From Pricia antarctica (GTDB lineage Bacteria; Bacteroidota; Bacteroidia; Flavobacteriales; Flavobacteriaceae), in NCBI GenBank assembly GCA_011050085.1, contig DRGL01000020.1:1-38854 (forward strand): a stretch of DNA of 38,854 nucleotides. Direction: 5' to 3'. Positions 1 to 29,878 of the stretch are shown piece by piece. The position numbers were made by a program, and so were the translations under genes. Every line of letters starts with the position of its first letter. Position 1 is the stretch's first letter. The notes below the pieces were generated by a model. That model did no database searches. It was given only the letters and a program-made list of their open reading frames with translations, and was not told the DNA's origin.

Positions 1-2
1 AG

Positions 3-24
3 ACCTGCCTGCCGGCAGGCAGGT
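3..24. repeat. 22-bp perfect palindrome, copy 1
   Basis: A perfect inverted repeat built on half-site CCTGCCTGCC, flanked by one more A/T pair. It is GC-rich in an AT-rich genome and would fold as a strong hairpin. It sits inside the anticodon loop of the tRNA-like sequence. It resembles REP-type dispersed palindromes. Confidence 0.9.
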
Positions 25-65
25 TTCGGCTCTGAGGGTTGGGGGTTTGAATCCCTCCGCGGTCA
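24..65 (+). pseudogene. tRNA-Arg(UCG)-like 3' half, copy 1
   Basis: Positions 24-30 can be an anticodon loop TTTCGGC, giving anticodon TCG. Positions 31-35 are the 3' side of the anticodon stem. A five-pair T stem (41-45 with 53-57) closes a TTTGAAT loop, and 58-64 CGCGGTC could be the 3' acceptor strand with A65 as discriminator. The 5' half would lie before base 1, so I cannot tell whether this copy is a functional tRNA. In copy 2 the 5' half is visible and does not pair. Confidence 0.55.
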
Positions 66-67
66 CA

Positions 68-96
68 AAGGATCTTGCATCGCAAGGTCCTTTTTT
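68..96 (+). terminator. Hairpin terminator, repeat copy 1
   Basis: An 11-bp stem (68-78 with 82-92, one G-T pair) with a three-base ATC loop is followed by a run of T. It lies directly after the tRNA-like 3' half, as expected for a tRNA terminator, and before the GIY-YIG start at 108. Confidence 0.75.
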
Positions 97-107
97 ATTT
101 TCGGACT

Positions 108-347
108 ATGTTCTATGTTTATGTACTTTTGAGCGAGAAAGACGGTAGGCTCTATAAGGGCATCACGGGAGATATCGTAAAGAGGGTGAAACAACATAAT
201 CTGGGGCAGAACAGGTCGACAAGGGCATTTGGACCATGGAAGCTTGTCCATCGGGAAGAATTCGCCACTAGGCCCGAGGCAAGGTCCAGGGAGAAATTTT
301 TCAAATCGGGAGGCGGTAGGGAGTTCCTAAAGAATAAACTGGGTTGA
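108..347 (+). CDS. Small GIY-YIG nuclease-domain protein, copy 1
   Basis: This 79-residue protein is almost entirely one GIY-YIG domain of the small UPF0213/YhbQ type. The YVYVL strand stands for the GIY motif and LYKGIT for YIG. KRVKQHN holds the usual helix arginine, and the SREKFFK segment supplies the conserved glutamate region. An upstream in-frame ATG at 75 is possible but lies inside the terminator hairpin, so I place the start at 108. The family cuts or binds DNA through a single metal site. The duplicated setting beside palindromes and tRNA fragments suggests a mobile-element role rather than housekeeping repair. That role is inference. Confidence 0.85.
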   Translation: MFYVYVLLSEKDGRLYKGITGDIVKRVKQHNLGQNRSTRAFGPWKLVHREEFATRPEARSREKFFKSGGGREFLKNKLG

Positions 348-355
348 TATAAATG

Positions 356-439
356 TACGGCTGGATAGCGCATCAGACCTGCCTGCCGGCAGGCAGGTTT
401 CGGCTCTGAGGGTTGGGGGTTTGAATCCCTCCGCGGTCA
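356..439 (+). pseudogene. tRNA-Arg(UCG)-like sequence split by the palindrome, copy 2
   Basis: A 5' remnant (356-377) contains a GGATAGCGCA D-arm-like stretch and TCAGA (373-377). After it comes the palindrome, then TTTCGGC (398-404) and TCTGA (405-409). Leaving out the 20 bases at 378-397 gives a perfect five-pair anticodon stem with a seven-base loop and anticodon TCG. The T arm and 3' acceptor strand (CGCGGTC, 432-438) look intact. The 5' acceptor strand and part of the D stem are missing or changed, so this copy should not make a functional tRNA. Confidence 0.6.
377..398. repeat. 22-bp perfect palindrome, copy 2
   Basis: Identical to copy 1. It lies between the 5' and 3' sides of the anticodon stem of the tRNA-like sequence, at the border of the two tandem units. 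Confidence 0.9.
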
Positions 440-441
440 CA

Positions 442-470
442 AAGGATCTTGCATCGCAAGGTCCTTTTTT
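442..470 (+). terminator. Hairpin terminator, repeat copy 2
   Basis: Same 11-bp stem, ATC loop and T run as at 68-96, shifted by 374 bases. It lies between the tRNA-like 3' half and the second GIY-YIG gene. Confidence 0.75.
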
Positions 471-481
471 ATTTTCGGATT

Positions 482-721
482 ATGTTCTATGTTTATGTGC
501 TTCGTAGCGAGAAAGACGGTAGGCTCTATAAGGGCATCACGGGAGATATCGTTAAGAGGGTGAAACAACATAATCTGGGGCAGAACAGGTCGACAAGGGC
601 ATTTGGACCATGGAAGCTTGTCCATCGAGAAGAATTCGCCACTAGGCCCGAGGCAAGGTCCAGGGAGAAATTTTTCAAATCGGGAGGCGGTAGGGAGTTG
701 CTAAAGAATAAACTGGGTTGA
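482..721 (+). CDS. Small GIY-YIG nuclease-domain protein, copy 2
   Basis: A 79-residue duplicate of the gene at 108-347. It keeps the YVYVL and LYKGIT core motifs and the SREKFFK region. I see two coding differences from copy 1: Leu to Arg after YVYVL, and Phe to Leu near the C-terminus. Both copies are open and undamaged, so the duplication is recent, being corrected by gene conversion, or under selection. Start chosen downstream of the terminator hairpin, as for copy 1. Confidence 0.85.
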   Translation: MFYVYVLRSEKDGRLYKGITGDIVKRVKQHNLGQNRSTRAFGPWKLVHREEFATRPEARSREKFFKSGGGRELLKNKLG

Positions 722-729
722 TATAAATG

Positions 730-813
730 TACGGCTGGATAGCGCATCAGACCTGCCTGCCGGCTGGCAGGTTTCGGCTCTGAGGGTTGGTGGTTTGAAT
801 CCTGTTGAGGTCA
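730..813 (+). pseudogene. tRNA-Arg-like sequence split by the palindrome, copy 3 (degenerate)
   Basis: The 5' remnant and the anticodon stem match copy 2, but the T arm has changed: GGTGG faces CCTGT, which no longer pairs well, and the acceptor reads TGAGGTC instead of CGCGGTC. No GIY-YIG gene follows. This copy marks the decayed downstream end of the array. Confidence 0.5.
751..772. repeat. 22-bp palindrome, copy 3 (one mismatch)
   Basis: Same element as at 3-24 and 377-398, with one A to T change in the second half-site (CTGGCAGG), which breaks one pair of the stem. Confidence 0.85.
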
Positions 814-827
814 CTATTAACATCGAG

Positions 828-1447: not shown

Positions 1448-1591
1448 TTACGAAGGTTTTATATGAACTCCGGTTTTTTCAGAAGCGATATCAAGATTAT
1501 CGCCTTCTTTTGTTACAGGTTTAACCTTCTCAGATGGCATTTGATTTTTTGCGCCATCCGGTTTTTTTGAACTACTCATATTGTCTGCCAT
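1448..1591 (-). CDS. Possible small hydrophilic protein, 47 aa
   Basis: An ATG at 1591 opens a 47-residue frame ending in TAA at 1448. The start reads MADNMSSSKKPDG and the end TGVHIKPS. The peptide is rich in Lys, Ser and Asp, with no TM segment and no cysteine. Codon use looks ordinary for the window, and an open frame of this length is rare in such AT-rich sequence. I do not recognise a family. It is divergent from the gene at 1697, about 105 bases away, so the two may share a promoter region. It may be a chance frame. Confidence 0.4.
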   Translation of the reverse strand: MADNMSSSKKPDGAKNQMPSEKVKPVTKEGDNLDIASEKTGVHIKPS

Positions 1592-1696
1592 AACTAAAAA
1601 TTTTGAATTTTATATTCTATATTAGTCAAATAGATGCAATAAAGCAAATTTGTATACTCATTTAGAGGATTGTATGCGAAACTGATTATTAAACTG

Positions 1697-3769
1697 ATGA
1701 ATCTTAACCAGTTTTTAAATGAATGTCAAGAAAAAGGTGTTCTAAAATACCTATCTATATATATTGTTTCAAGTTGGGTTTTCCTGCAAGTCGTATCAGT
1801 AATTTCTGACCCTTTAAAACTTCCAAAAGCTACCATTACCTATTCCCTATTGTTCTTATTGATCGGCCTTCCATTTTATATCTTTCTCTTGTGGAAATAT
1901 CAGATTAAACCATTAAATAAGAAAGCAGTTTCCGAATTATCGCATGAAGAAGATTTAGGTAGCGCATCATCAAAATCTGCCATCGAACTTAATCCTGATA
2001 ATGAATCTTTTGTGACGGCAAAAAGCTTTAATAAAAGCTTTCAGAAAATATACTTTATAGTTTTAGGCATTATTGGTATAATCGCAATTTCAGTTGCCGG
2101 TTTAATTATTAATACAGCCATAACTACAAGTGAGAATCTGAAGGTTTCAAATGCCTTTTTGGAAACCAAGGCAAGTGATAAAATCGCGATATTAACATTT
2201 GACAATAACACCGCTGATGAAAAATATGACATTGTTGGTAAGATGGCCGTTGATTGGATTATGCACGGAATTACTGAAAATAGATTGGCCCAAGTAATTT
2301 CGCCGAAAATTATAGATGACTATTCCAAAGTATTAAAGGCCTCAATGCTTCCTTCCGCTAACGATAGTGTGGTAACGAATTACCTAAAGCCTTCCAAAAT
2401 TATTATGGGAGATTTTTATTTAAAGGGCGACCGTTTACTATTACAGTCTTCGATAACCGATGCAAATATGGACCGGACACTTATTGCTTTCAAACCCATT
2501 GATTGCGATGCCAAATCTCCTTTAGAGTGTATCGAGGCTTTGAAACAACGTATCTTAGGCTTTTTGGTTACGGAGTCTAAACCTTTAGATAATCTTCAAG
2601 AATCCCCGCCTAATTTTGAGGCTTACCAAAACCTCCTATTAGCCAAAAATAATTATGATAACAACGATGAATACCTTCGTTATGTAAATGCCGCAATAGC
2701 TGCAGATAACAATTATTATGAGGCTAAGGTTAACCGTTTGGCCCACTACTATAATTTGGGTGAATACCGGGTTGCCGACTCATTGCTCAAAGTACTGTCG
2801 AAAGAGACTAGTACCAACGAGAGACAACTAAATAATCTCAAAATTTATCAAGCCCTTCTTCAAGGTAACAATAGAAATATTTACCGCTATTTAAAAAAAG
2901 AATACGCAATAAATCCCTTCGACTTGGAAACCAACTCAAGTTTCATGACCGTAGCCAAACAATTTGTGAATCGGCCTGAAGATGTTGGAAAGATTTACGA
3001 TGAAATTTCGATGAAGGGGATGGATGTGATAGATTGTGAATATTGTTCATATAGATATCTCATTAAGGCACTCGCCGATATTCAGTTGGGAAAGTTAGAT
3101 TCGGCGATTACGTTAGTCAAGCCATTTGCCAAAACAAAGGGAAAGGAAAGATTGAAAGAGGTTTTGCTAAAGGCTTATGTACAATCCGGTAAATCAGCTA
3201 AGGCCGTAAAGAGTTTACTGGTCAATTTCAATCATGTGGTTAGTAAGGATGCCTGGCGTAGGTTGATGCTATCCACTGGTAAGGAATACCTGCTAAAAAA
3301 CAAACCTGATTTAGCAAAATATTATTGGAATCAACTGATTACCTCTTTTCCACAAGCTGCCTCAACTGGAGAAGATTTACAGTTGCTTGCTCACGCCTTT
3401 TTCTATGATGAAAAGTATACCCAAGCCATAACAAATTATGAAAAATTATTAGTTATAGATTCCATCGGAAAGACGGAAAGTTACGCCAATCTAGCAATAG
3501 CCTATCAAAAAATCAAAAAGCCAAATAGAGCCGAATCGGTACTACAAAAACTTCAAAATAAAAGGGGCAACTACGACTATGGCAATGTCGACTATGCCCT
3601 AGCTAGATACCACGCTGCACTTTCCGACGATAAAGAGGCTATAGACTACCTATATAGAGCGGTAGCTTCTGGCAAAAGATATAATCTAGATGCCTATCAA
3701 AATGAAATTCTTTTCAAGCCTTATCTAGCAAGTGATGATTTTGAAAAGATAATGAGTTTTTGGAAATAA
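1697..3769 (+). CDS. Membrane protein with FlgO/TolB-like domain and TPR repeats
   Basis: The 690-residue protein starts FLNECQEKGVLKYLSIY and continues into a first TM (about 17-37), the N-terminal hydrophobic module seen in many TPR signalling proteins and adenylate-cyclase-like proteins. A second TM lies at about 48-66 and a third at about 118-139. Next comes a FlgO-like domain (about 161-290, opening DKIAILTFDNNTADEKYD), followed by TPR-like helical repeats to the end. The three TMs should leave the FlgO and TPR parts on one side of the inner membrane. An in-frame ATG at 1670 would add nine residues; I prefer 1697 because the conserved module begins there. It lies 92 bases before the caspase gene on the same strand, so co-expression is likely. 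Function unknown; a sensor or scaffold role is inference. Confidence 0.8.
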   Translation: MNLNQFLNECQEKGVLKYLSIYIVSSWVFLQVVSVISDPLKLPKATITYSLLFLLIGLPFYIFLLWKYQIKPLNKKAVSELSHEEDLGSASSKSAIELNPDNESFVTAKSFNKSFQKIYFIVLGIIGIIAISVAGLIINTAITTSENLKVSNAFLETKASDKIAILTFDNNTADEKYDIVGKMAVDWIMHGITENRLAQVISPKIIDDYSKVLKASMLPSANDSVVTNYLKPSKIIMGDFYLKGDRLLLQSSITDANMDRTLIAFKPIDCDAKSPLECIEALKQRILGFLVTESKPLDNLQESPPNFEAYQNLLLAKNNYDNNDEYLRYVNAAIAADNNYYEAKVNRLAHYYNLGEYRVADSLLKVLSKETSTNERQLNNLKIYQALLQGNNRNIYRYLKKEYAINPFDLETNSSFMTVAKQFVNRPEDVGKIYDEISMKGMDVIDCEYCSYRYLIKALADIQLGKLDSAITLVKPFAKTKGKERLKEVLLKAYVQSGKSAKAVKSLLVNFNHVVSKDAWRRLMLSTGKEYLLKNKPDLAKYYWNQLITSFPQAASTGEDLQLLAHAFFYDEKYTQAITNYEKLLVIDSIGKTESYANLAIAYQKIKKPNRAESVLQKLQNKRGNYDYGNVDYALARYHAALSDDKEAIDYLYRAVASGKRYNLDAYQNEILFKPYLASDDFEKIMSFWK

Positions 3770-13954: not shown

Positions 13955-14818
13955 ATGAGTGTAAAAGGAATTTTAATTCCCATTGGCGGCAATGAGGATA
14001 AGGGTATCGATACTCAAGAGGATTACCTTTTGGAATTCGTGCAAGAAAGTATATTGGCCCGTGTAGTAAAAGAAAGTGGTGGTAAAGATGCCTTAATCGT
14101 AGTTGTCCCGACCGCTTCGCGAATTCCCGATGAAGTGGGCAGAAACTATATACAAGCTTTCGGAAAAATAGGATGTACCAACGTTCAAATCATGGATATC
14201 CGAAAGCGCGAGCAATCAGAAGATCCAATAAATATAGCCTTGGTCGAAAAAGCGGACTGTGTGATGTTTTCCGGTGGAAATCAGTCGAATATCACAAGAA
14301 AAATAGGAAATACTACAATCCATCGCATATTAACGAATCGCTATATAAACGATAATTTTGTCATTGCCGGAACAAGTGCCGGCGCTATGTGCATGTCGGG
14401 TGAAATGATTACTGGAGGCAGCAGTAAAGAATCGTTTATTAAGGGCGCTGTAGGTATGGCTAAAGGGATGGATTTTATTTCAAAACTCATTATTGATTCC
14501 CATTTTATTACTAGGGGAAGGTTCGGTAGATTGGCGGAAGCGATCGCCCGCTACCCCCACCTGTTGGGAGTTGGACTTGCTGAAGATACCGGCATGGTCA
14601 TAAAAAATTGTAATACGTTCGAAATTATCGGTTCCGGGATGGTCATATTGTTCGACCCCACCAAAATAAGGCATAATAATGAAAAGCATCTGAAAGTAGG
14701 TATGCCCATGTCAATCTCTAATCTTAAGACCCATATTTTAGCTAATGGAGATCGATTCAACATCAAAAAACGAAAGCTGAAGGTAGTACCATCCAATAAA
14801 TCCTTTATCGTGGAATGA
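13955..14818 (+). CDS. cphB: Cyanophycinase CphB
   Basis: A 287-residue serine exopeptidase of family S51. The nucleophile is Ser141 in the motif GTSAGAM. VMFSGGNQ (about 103-110) and the His in IDSHFITRGR are other family signatures. It releases beta-Asp-Arg dipeptides from cyanophycin. There is no signal peptide, so it works on intracellular polymer. An upstream in-frame ATG at 13901 exists, but that stretch overlaps the probable promoter, and MSVKGILIPIGG is the expected family start. The gene is divergent from cphA and convergent with iaaA, which takes its product. Confidence 0.95.
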   Translation: MSVKGILIPIGGNEDKGIDTQEDYLLEFVQESILARVVKESGGKDALIVVVPTASRIPDEVGRNYIQAFGKIGCTNVQIMDIRKREQSEDPINIALVEKADCVMFSGGNQSNITRKIGNTTIHRILTNRYINDNFVIAGTSAGAMCMSGEMITGGSSKESFIKGAVGMAKGMDFISKLIIDSHFITRGRFGRLAEAIARYPHLLGVGLAEDTGMVIKNCNTFEIIGSGMVILFDPTKIRHNNEKHLKVGMPMSISNLKTHILANGDRFNIKKRKLKVVPSNKSFIVE

Positions 14819-29546: not shown

Positions 29547-29816
29547 TTACTTTCTGATGTTCAGTTCTTTAATTAGTTCACGATAGCGAACAACATCTTT
29601 TTTCTTCAAATAATCGAGAAGACTACGTCGCTTACCCACCAATTTTACTAGTGATCGTTCGGTGTTAAAATCTTTTCGATTGTTTTTCAAATGCCCCGTA
29701 AGGTGATTGATACGATGAGTGAAAAGAGCAACTTGCCCTTCGGTAGAACCTGTGTTCTCCGCTTTCCCGCCATGCTTTGTAAAGATGTCGGCTTTTACTT
29801 CCTTGCTTAAATACAT
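29547..29816 (-). CDS. rpsO: 30S ribosomal protein S15
   Basis: An 89-residue protein, the exact family length. The N-terminus has the substitution-rich MYLSKEVKADIF. The core motifs TGSTEGQVALFTHRINHLTGHLK, HNRSLVKLVGKRRSLLDYLKKKD-type helix and ending RYRELIKELNIRK are diagnostic (here the middle reads FNTERSLVKLVGKRR). It binds 16S rRNA helix 22 early in assembly of the small subunit platform. Confidence 0.97.
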   Translation of the reverse strand: MYLSKEVKADIFTKHGGKAENTGSTEGQVALFTHRINHLTGHLKNNRKDFNTERSLVKLVGKRRSLLDYLKKKDVVRYRELIKELNIRK

Positions 29817-29847
29817 GCCAATATTATTTTAAATGATTTTTATGTAT

Positions 29848-29867
29848 GCTGCCGATTTTCGGACAGC
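29848..29867 (-). promoter_or_regulatory. Hairpin in the rpsO leader, possible S15 operator
   Basis: Read on the minus strand: GCTG, a bulged T, CCGA, loop AAA, TCGG, CAGC. It begins close to the predicted transcript start and ends about 31 bases before the rpsO ATG. S15 represses its own mRNA through leader structures in several phyla, which suggests this role, but I cannot show rRNA mimicry. Confidence 0.4.
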
Positions 29868-29870
29868 GTG

Positions 29871-29878
29871 CAAATATA
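29871..29878 (-). promoter_or_regulatory. Probable -7 box of rpsO
   Basis: TATATTTG on the minus strand, an exact TAnnTTTG match, 55 bases before the rpsO ATG. A clear TTG -33 box is not visible. Confidence 0.5.

Follow-up and report, generated by a model that had tools for sequence, protein, structure and literature searches.

The 38,854-nt stretch of Pricia antarctica DNA analysed here (the window; contig DRGL01000020.1 of assembly GCA_011050085.1, called C20 below) begins inside a tandem array of 374-bp units, each carrying a palindromic hairpin, pieces of a tRNA-Arg(UCG) gene and a gene for a small GIY-YIG nuclease. The array is probably a chain of homing-type modules, in which a GIY-YIG nuclease consisting of the catalytic domain only interrupts a tRNA gene, and the module itself supplies the piece from which the gene is restored. 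The evidence comprises the anatomy of the unit, a partial copy of the same tRNA beside it, recurring hairpin coordinates, sites with a single tRNA in relatives, nuclease clades that follow the target, and purifying selection on the nuclease.

Anatomy of the tandem array

The source assembly is a 5.48-Mb draft genome of 84 contigs, and the window begins with the first base of C20, so that the contig starts inside the array. A direct-repeat comparison gave a spacing of 374 bp, with 98% identity between 1–300 and 375–674, and the part of the array in the window was resolved into two units and a partial third copy of 66 nt (749–814) that is 89% identical to the other copies. The features, assigned from the sequence, are as follows.

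1–374, plus strand: unit 1 (hairpin, tRNA-Arg 3′ half, terminator-like hairpin, GIY-YIG gene, tRNA-Arg 5′-side fragment), a 374-bp repeat, 98% identical to unit 2 and to the unit on contig C18 of the same assembly
4–23, no strand: 20-bp palindrome CCTGCCTGCCGGCAGGCAGG, between tRNA nt 32 and 33, at the stem/loop border of the anticodon arm
24–66, plus strand: tRNA-Arg(UCG) 3′ half (nt 33 to the end; loop TTTCGGC at 24–30, anticodon at 26–28), its letters matching the intact tRNA on C18
68–97, plus strand: terminator-like hairpin, by eye similar to the hairpin after the single tRNA in the congener G001
108–347, plus strand: GIY-YIG gene 1 (ATG at 108, 79 aa; the listed open reading frame (ORF), from TTG at 75, has 90 aa)
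355–377, plus strand: tRNA-Arg 5′-side fragment (what is left of the D arm, and the anticodon stem's 5′ strand), running into the next palindrome
375–748, plus strand: unit 2, direct repeat with the anatomy of unit 1
378–397, no strand: second palindrome, identical to the first
398–440, plus strand: tRNA-Arg(UCG) 3′ half, copy 2
442–471, plus strand: terminator-like hairpin, copy 2
482–721, plus strand: GIY-YIG gene 2 (ATG at 482, 79 aa)
729–751, plus strand: tRNA-Arg 5′-side fragment preceding the third palindrome
752–771, no strand: third palindrome, one mismatch
772–814, plus strand: last tRNA-Arg 3′ half, diverged (89% over 66 nt), then another terminator-like hairpin

A first-pass annotation of this DNA had described a perfect 22-bp palindrome in each unit. 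This palindrome, ACCTGCCTGCCGGCAGGCAGGT, is indeed perfect at 3–24 and 377–398, while its third copy (751–772) carries one mismatch. The terminator-like hairpin and the two intact GIY-YIG ORFs that it had listed were both present, with Pfam GIY-YIG matches of E 1.9e-13 and 7.8e-14 for the ORFs, and omitting the 20 bases of CCTGCCTGCCGGCAGGCAGG, as it had proposed, restored the anticodon arm that the intact tRNA-Arg(UCG) on C18 has, which bears out its tRNA reading. Its placing of the palindrome needed revision in one respect: the palindrome does lie in copies of tRNA-Arg(UCG), at 32/33 (a coordinate measured on locus L081, the C18 part of the array), although only in displaced, broken copies, the working tRNA being intact. 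ARAGORN found no tRNA in the window, because the copies there are broken and lack the 5′ acceptor strand. The 3′ half at 772–814 would be the displaced end of the resident gene; this last half is diverged, and the tRNAs are too alike to tell whether the restoring piece is of foreign origin.

The working tRNA-Arg(UCG) and the number of units

The end of contig C18 is made of the same array and overlaps the window start exactly over 58 nt; C18 and C20 probably adjoin. The order on C18 is a YqeY-like gene (family assigned from the corresponding gene of G001), a broken 5′ half of tRNA-Arg that contains a palindrome of lesser length, an intact tRNA-Arg(UCG), a terminator and a further GIY-YIG unit. 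The full tRNA that had been sought by extension upstream of the window is thus on C18, at 14253–14327 (L018:1620–1694), and contains no palindrome; the 30 listed matches of a 465-base query included no second intact tRNA-Arg(UCG) of this genome. The units are of at least three different kinds, as the two window units differ at 8 positions over 374 bp and the C18 unit differs from each of them at 7 positions over 350 bp. A second, divergent small GIY-YIG gene of the same genome was seen 47 bp downstream of a tRNA-Phe gene (L009:1380–1737).

Occupied and empty sites in related genomes

The genus sample held four genomes, that of the window included. In G001 and G002, the YqeY–tRNA-Arg(UCG) locus carries a single tRNA and lacks a nuclease match in the surrounding 3 kb, so related strains without units at the same site, for which the first-pass annotation had suggested a search, do exist and the array is not conserved in all relatives. 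G003 (79% complete) gave no match, and G001 gave one weaker profile match at another place (E 5.7e-14). In G002, a serine recombinase (Pfam Resolvase, Recombinase) reaches the 3′ end of tRNA-Arg(UCG) (L078:1–1554); this tRNA seems to be used also by an unrelated type of element.

Occupied and unoccupied alleles were also found in three further congener pairs, in which the second genome has, at the corresponding place, a single tRNA and no nuclease match: G222/G030 (L083, tRNA-Met), G219/G025 (L104, tRNA-Arg) and G144/G292 (L096, tRNA-Arg). Together with G001 and G002, the three second genomes provide the unoccupied state that is expected at the site of a homing element. In G222/G030 and G144/G292, the upstream homology extends into the tRNA, and the shared stretch recurs at the intact copy. 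The order in G144 is upstream flank, tRNA nt 1–22, hairpin, tRNA nt 23–35, nuclease gene, a short unrelated spacer and a complete tRNA, while in G292 the same flank is joined directly to the tRNA. These layouts indicate that the occupied site is an insertion that doubled the first part of the tRNA, and that the rebuilt tRNA is without its native upstream region.

Linkage of small GIY-YIG genes to tRNA genes

A first sample, obtained with one protein query in public genomes, gave 32 relatives in Bacteroidota, Patescibacteria, Omnitrophota, Verrucomicrobia and others; 15 of them have a tRNA gene on the same strand within 300 bp and a sixteenth has one at 406 bp (hand count). A profile, A1, was then built from 17 members, tRNA-linked ones being used, and it matched 174 of 299 genomes of the same family (E≤1e-12) and 109 of 296 genomes of the phylum (E≤1e-15). 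From the stronger family matches listed, 110 loci (30 automatic, 80 hand-picked) were taken, each array once. A tRNA gene lay within 300 bp in 90 of the 110, on the same strand in 90/90, upstream of the nuclease gene in 20 and downstream or overlapping in 70 with a median spacing of 14 bp; the control test was passed by 45 of 10,000 random 230-bp intervals (400 kb from 20 of these genomes). Linkage was likewise seen in 17/24 loci of the phylum sample and in 9/16 new loci from 15 genomes carrying first-sample loci (30 loci minus 14 repeats of the first sample). These 110-, 24- and 16-locus samples lean to tRNA-linked members, because A1 was built from such members.

The neighbouring tRNAs were those for Arg, Met, Ala, Asn, Asp, Leu, Ser, Val, Cys, Ile, Thr, Pro, Gln, Glu, Phe and His. 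Some of the 20 family loci without a nearby tRNA gene are tRNA 3′ ends or insertions in protein genes. Rfam searches of the window and of 18 loci without an ARAGORN tRNA gave three matches, one being a ribosomal leader in the window. At L093, the tRNA match coincides with a hairpin-bearing tRNA-Arg half, and at L186 (1501–2372) a small GIY-YIG gene is preceded, at a distance of about 255 bp and in the same orientation, by a transfer-messenger RNA (tmRNA) gene, which makes tmRNA a possible further target.

Tandem nuclease copies at most 500 bp apart were present in 17 of the 110 family loci. The stretch L167:1498–4261 holds eight tandem GIY-YIG genes spaced 353–371 bp apart, with tRNA 3′ ends and short GGCGGAC-type hairpins; a complete tRNA was not found within that stretch.

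Displaced tRNA copies and hairpin insertion points

Many of the 18 tRNA-linked loci that were viewed contain, together with a GC-rich hairpin, a broken copy of the same tRNA. Both features were then counted in 92 tRNA-linked family loci, the 18 loci without a tRNA being left out. The adjacent tRNA recurred as a second, incomplete copy (ungapped score ≥16) in 58/92 loci, compared with 0/920 trials with tRNAs of other amino acids. A clean hairpin insertion in the partial copy, defined as left and right tRNA coordinates within 3 nt, was found in 28/92 loci, compared with 3/460 control trials.

The 37 hairpins so located recur at few positions: 24 at 22/23 (Arg, Ala and Met), 7 at 31–32 (Arg-UCG, the layout of the window) and 6 at 8, 9 or 24. 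The two main positions are stem borders: one bounds the D loop on its 3′ side, the other bounds the anticodon loop on its 5′ side. A hairpin-type pattern, written after hairpins had been viewed, gave 65 matches in the GIY-YIG regions (47/110 loci) and none in 400 kb of control sequence from 20 family genomes; therefore, the hairpin in the unit is not due to chance.

These results bear out the suggestion of a recurrent tRNA-linked unit made up of hairpin, tRNA piece and GIY-YIG gene, present at some orthologous sites and absent at others. They also reproduce the hallmark of a gene-end duplication, in that the host gene is rebuilt beside an endonuclease ORF and the displaced piece remains.

The nuclease

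The Pfam GIY-YIG domain spans residues 12–78 of the 90-aa ORF, and the catalytic-domain residues Y4, Y15, G17, R25 and E61 are among the invariant columns of a 48-row alignment. The AlphaFold model of the gene 2 product (residues 2–79) is one compact domain with a mean predicted local distance difference test score of 95.9. Neither the Pfam match nor the model of the window protein contains a separate DNA-binding domain; known GIY-YIG homing endonucleases usually have an additional DNA-binding region for site specificity. The closest solved structures were UPF0213 protein BH0048, SLX1 and the I-TevI catalytic domain, with no Foldseek match at E≤0.001, and an NCBIfam model of group I intron endonucleases (searched up to E 0.01) matched 11 of 17 members (best 3.9e-6).

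Target choice is inherited, and nuclease clades follow the target tRNA. In the tree of the family rows (n=93), the target label changes 16 times, compared with 53–65 times in 200 shuffles, and in the tree of 118 rows 30 times, compared with 73–86; the alignment has 77 columns, many forks are unresolved and the labels of close relatives are non-independent. Locus L046, being the same locus as L079, was omitted from the shuffles. The nuclease is under purifying selection, as 9 of 14 hand-picked homologue pairs gave ratios of non-synonymous to synonymous substitution rates of 0.05–0.27, the synonymous rate being saturated in the other five. Few substitutions separate the window units; unit 2 and the C18 unit, for example, differ by 2 synonymous and 4 non-synonymous changes.

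For the window enzyme, tblastn (E≤1e-5) gave no match among 50,697 records of phages and 72,556 of plasmids, and a phage or plasmid vehicle was set aside on that ground. Six relatives of the nuclease were found in viral contigs.

Proposed mechanism and points against it

In the mechanism that we propose, a module of about 300–370 bases has three parts: a gene for a nuclease of about 79 aa, a GC-rich hairpin at the split, and the part of the target tRNA that the split displaces. It occupies a fixed stem border of the tRNA gene, at 22/23 in the D arm or at 32/33 in the anticodon arm. At one junction, the hairpin would leave the displaced host half dead, and at the other the module-borne piece and the remaining host half would rebuild a complete tRNA. 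Two mirror-image layouts follow this scheme. Layout A reads [tRNA 1–22, hairpin, tRNA 23 to about 28–35], GIY-YIG gene, [intact tRNA]; layout B, that of the window, reads [intact tRNA], terminator, GIY-YIG gene, [tRNA fragment, hairpin, tRNA 3′ half]. The nuclease would cut a tRNA gene that is not yet occupied, at the place of the hairpin or close to it, and repair from an occupied copy would insert the module, and further breaks in the rebuilt tRNA together with recombination between units could produce tandem arrays. The hairpin may serve as a junction mark, as an immunity device or as a structure recognised by the enzyme.

Several points weigh against this mechanism, in which the cutting, the movement and the role of the hairpin are all inferred. 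The rebuilt tRNA should remain cuttable, which simple homing must account for, and the protein, as judged from its model, appears to be without the DNA-binding modules of known GIY-YIG homing enzymes. The hairpin is present also without the nuclease; in the window's genome, 5 of its 9 places are away from any detected GIY-YIG gene and tRNA (3 kb around). Among the family loci, 20/110 lack a tRNA within 300 bp, and in 18 of these the whole stretch retrieved is without one; by the criteria used, a clean hairpin insertion is missing from 64 of the 92 loci with tRNA linkage. The picture is not uniform either, since most tRNA-Asn loci have weak partial copies only, and of the 29 loci whose partial copy is weak (score <14), 9 are of this kind. 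Finally, there is the bias of profile A1, which spares the 32-locus sample.

Relation to known systems

The window array resembles the 178-bp tandem repeats at Escherichia coli tyrT, which contain a tRNA-Tyr 3′ end and a small ORF; we know of no GIY-YIG gene and no hairpin insertion in those repeats.

The array works like gene-restoring homing modules, and the observation, which is confirmed, belongs to a widespread pattern. Mobile ORFs with carboxy-terminal duplications are described from fungal mitochondria, in Allomyces atp6 and in Glomus atp6, atp9, cox2 and nad3 (PMC3630166). They likewise combine an endonuclease ORF (GIY-YIG in Glomus atp9) with a copy of the gene end, so that the gene is rebuilt and the native end displaced, and by analogy they form a precedent for an endonuclease unit that brings a displaced gene end. 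They concern mitochondrial protein genes, whereas the window unit belongs to a bacterial chromosome and to tRNA genes and differs in its dead-junction hairpin, its tandem arrays and its catalytic-domain-only enzyme. SegB of T-even phages (T6), a free-standing GIY-YIG homing endonuclease adjoining tRNA genes, cuts these genes and amplifies a tandem unit of tRNA and segB (PMC13096335); by analogy, it can be regarded as a tested precedent for tRNA-gene cutting and unit amplification by a GIY-YIG enzyme. It is phage-borne, and a rebuilt split tRNA or a hairpin is not mentioned in the sections of the source consulted.

In sequence and fold, the nuclease matches the UPF0213/SLX1 branch most closely (1zg2, 1ywl, 7cq2). 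SLX1 differs in being a recombination nuclease with a partner protein, for which the consulted part of its description mentions no mobile unit (PMC7017083). In groundwater Patescibacteria, a GIY-YIG domain protein is among the genes for which donation to other bacteria is predicted (PMC12455944). The terms palindrom, COG2827, YhbQ and Bacteroid were not found in the searched portion of the 2006 survey of the GIY-YIG superfamily (PMC1564403). The literature matches listed include no title that deals with bacterial units combining a GIY-YIG gene, a hairpin and a tRNA, subscription journals and preprints being mostly outside the collection; neither the palindrome nor its translated peptide was found in the literature text, and GIY-YIG and terms for repetitive extragenic palindromes (REPs) were not found together in the papers searched for both.

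Palindromes away from the unit

The 20-mer (≤2 mismatches) occurs at 9 places in the window's genome, 4 in the array and 5 elsewhere. Two of the five outlying CCTGCCTGCCGGCAGGCAGG-type palindromes lie in a single ORF that encodes a transposase domain (Pfam DUF772; L004:960–1733, contig C50), where their translations read ACRQAG or LPAGR. Three copies, near position 1501 of L019, L025 and L032 (contigs C82, C53 and C27), have similar flanks, and neither a GIY-YIG gene nor a tRNA was found beside them. The genome-wide link between palindrome and nuclease that the first-pass annotation had raised thus stands only in part, failing at these five places and appearing, imperfectly, as co-occurrence across genomes. 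At least one near-exact hairpin copy was present in 56/93 genomes with the nuclease (E≤1e-18) and in 28/206 without it (299 genomes), and the nuclease in 17/21 genomes with at least 6 hairpins and in 76/278 others; these counts include hairpins within units and ignore phylogeny.

Inverted-repeat loci in protein genes

In a second class of 15 loci without a tRNA (L112, L120, L123, L135, L139, L146, L152, L156, L230, L231, L232, L238, L243, L245 and L249), the nuclease gene, as we read the sequence, is bounded by inverted repeats, e.g., ACCCCGTTAGAAAT and ACCTGTGAAATA, and lies in or at the start of protein genes, the sites of insertion being conserved coding motifs. The region viewed was the nuclease gene with about 100 bp on each side. 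The repeats found were 12–17 bp long in eight loci and 6–9 bp in seven, where the true ends may be missed, and the element measured 272–299 bp in the 13 loci in which the ends set by the finder look right. At L230 (nuclease ORF 1468–1737, minus strand), the left flank ends in QELLGHKNV and the right flank begins with KTTMIYTHV, and the element appears to split a tyrosine recombinase (Pfam Phage_integrase) cleanly. At L146, a broken epimerase start precedes the element and an intact one follows it (Pfam Epimerase), and the remaining epimerase-like loci look alike by eye. The logic of the element at epimerase genes equals that at tRNAs. By eye, the ORFs at L112, L120 and L249 are four-helix-bundle-like.

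A broader view can be put forward tentatively, as possible though somewhat doubtful: a new class of self-contained mobile DNA of about 270–370 bp in Bacteroidota and Patescibacteria, in which a catalytic-domain-only GIY-YIG nuclease and hairpin or inverted-repeat ends would be the whole mobility module. Its targets would be tRNA genes, which survive because the element has its own repair piece, and conserved motifs of protein genes, and the dispersed CCTGCCTGCCGGCAGGCAGG hairpins would be its non-autonomous relatives.

Alternative explanations

The inverted-repeat loci, with a related nuclease gene between repeats in or at the start of protein genes, also fit transposition. An SLX1-like structure-specific nuclease might recognise the hairpin and tRNA stem-loops in single-stranded or cruciform DNA and move a minimal insertion element bounded by hairpins, the dispersed hairpins being non-autonomous copies. 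That UPF0213 proteins and SLX1 are the nearest solved relatives, that the hairpins are located at stem borders, and that the nuclease is enriched in hairpin-rich genomes all agree with this view. However, the enrichment counts have the limits given above, and nuclease clades hold one tRNA species across many genera, which fits sequence-specific homing; we regard transposition as unlikely.

Tandem copies are common (17/110 loci), and host recombination between tRNA pieces can produce them, so the array might reflect passive duplication of a tRNA-adjacent nuclease gene, with hairpins from another source. Such duplication is improbable, as it leaves without explanation the link to many tRNAs in several phyla, the 90/90 same-strand placement, the single-tRNA sites in congeners and the recurring hairpin coordinate, and the spacer ahead of the rebuilt tRNA in G144 is unlike the native upstream sequence. 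A domesticated function, in which a host nuclease co-transcribed with the tRNA would act in the maturation, dosage or repair of tRNA, with displaced copies arising as by-products, is consistent with the purifying selection, with the tRNA-Asn kind and its little trace of insertion, and with the 14-bp median spacing to the downstream tRNA, which suggests co-transcription. It is nevertheless quite improbable in view of the patchy presence of the nuclease (174/299 family genomes, with none in G030, G025 and G292), the many unrelated tRNA species and the near-identical copies in arrays.

Small dispersed palindromes resemble REPs, which are spread over genomes and also lie beside an enzyme gene; there the enzyme is a Y1 HUH transposase, whereas in the window unit it is a GIY-YIG nuclease (PMC2817692, in the part consulted). 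The hairpins could on this view be REP-type repeats moved by a Y1 transposase (REP-associated tyrosine transposase (RAYT) or IS200-like) and unrelated to the GIY-YIG gene. A Y1_Tnp gene is present in the window's genome, and such genes were found in 5 of the 12 hairpin-rich genomes searched. In the other seven (G140, with 38 hairpins, G219, G285, G163, G144, G093 and G106), Y1_Tnp was not found and all carry the GIY-YIG gene; a RAYT therefore does not account for their hairpins, and the explanation is highly improbable.

Three known element types were rejected for the unit itself. For a group I intron, Rfam gave no match at the gathering score in the window and 18 loci, and the tRNA loop carries an insert of 20 bp; an integrase-borne tRNA-targeting element would not fit a 374-bp unit whose sole Pfam-matching ORF is GIY-YIG; and the unit, encoding GIY-YIG only, has no Y1 HUH transposase of the REP/RAYT type.

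If the array is a chain of tRNA-restoring homing modules, a widespread selfish element enters bacterial tRNA genes and persists there without an intron or an integrase, because it supplies the lost tRNA piece. It would be a bacterial counterpart of the fungal mitochondrial mobile ORFs and would account for many small GIY-YIG genes that have no known role, as well as for the broken tRNA copies and the GC-rich hairpins of these genomes, and its minimal nuclease would make target choice directly testable clade by clade.

Elsewhere in the window, the Rfam ribosomal leader match lies at 29814–29878 on the minus strand and belongs to the S15-Flavobacteria ribosomal protein leader family (RF03161).

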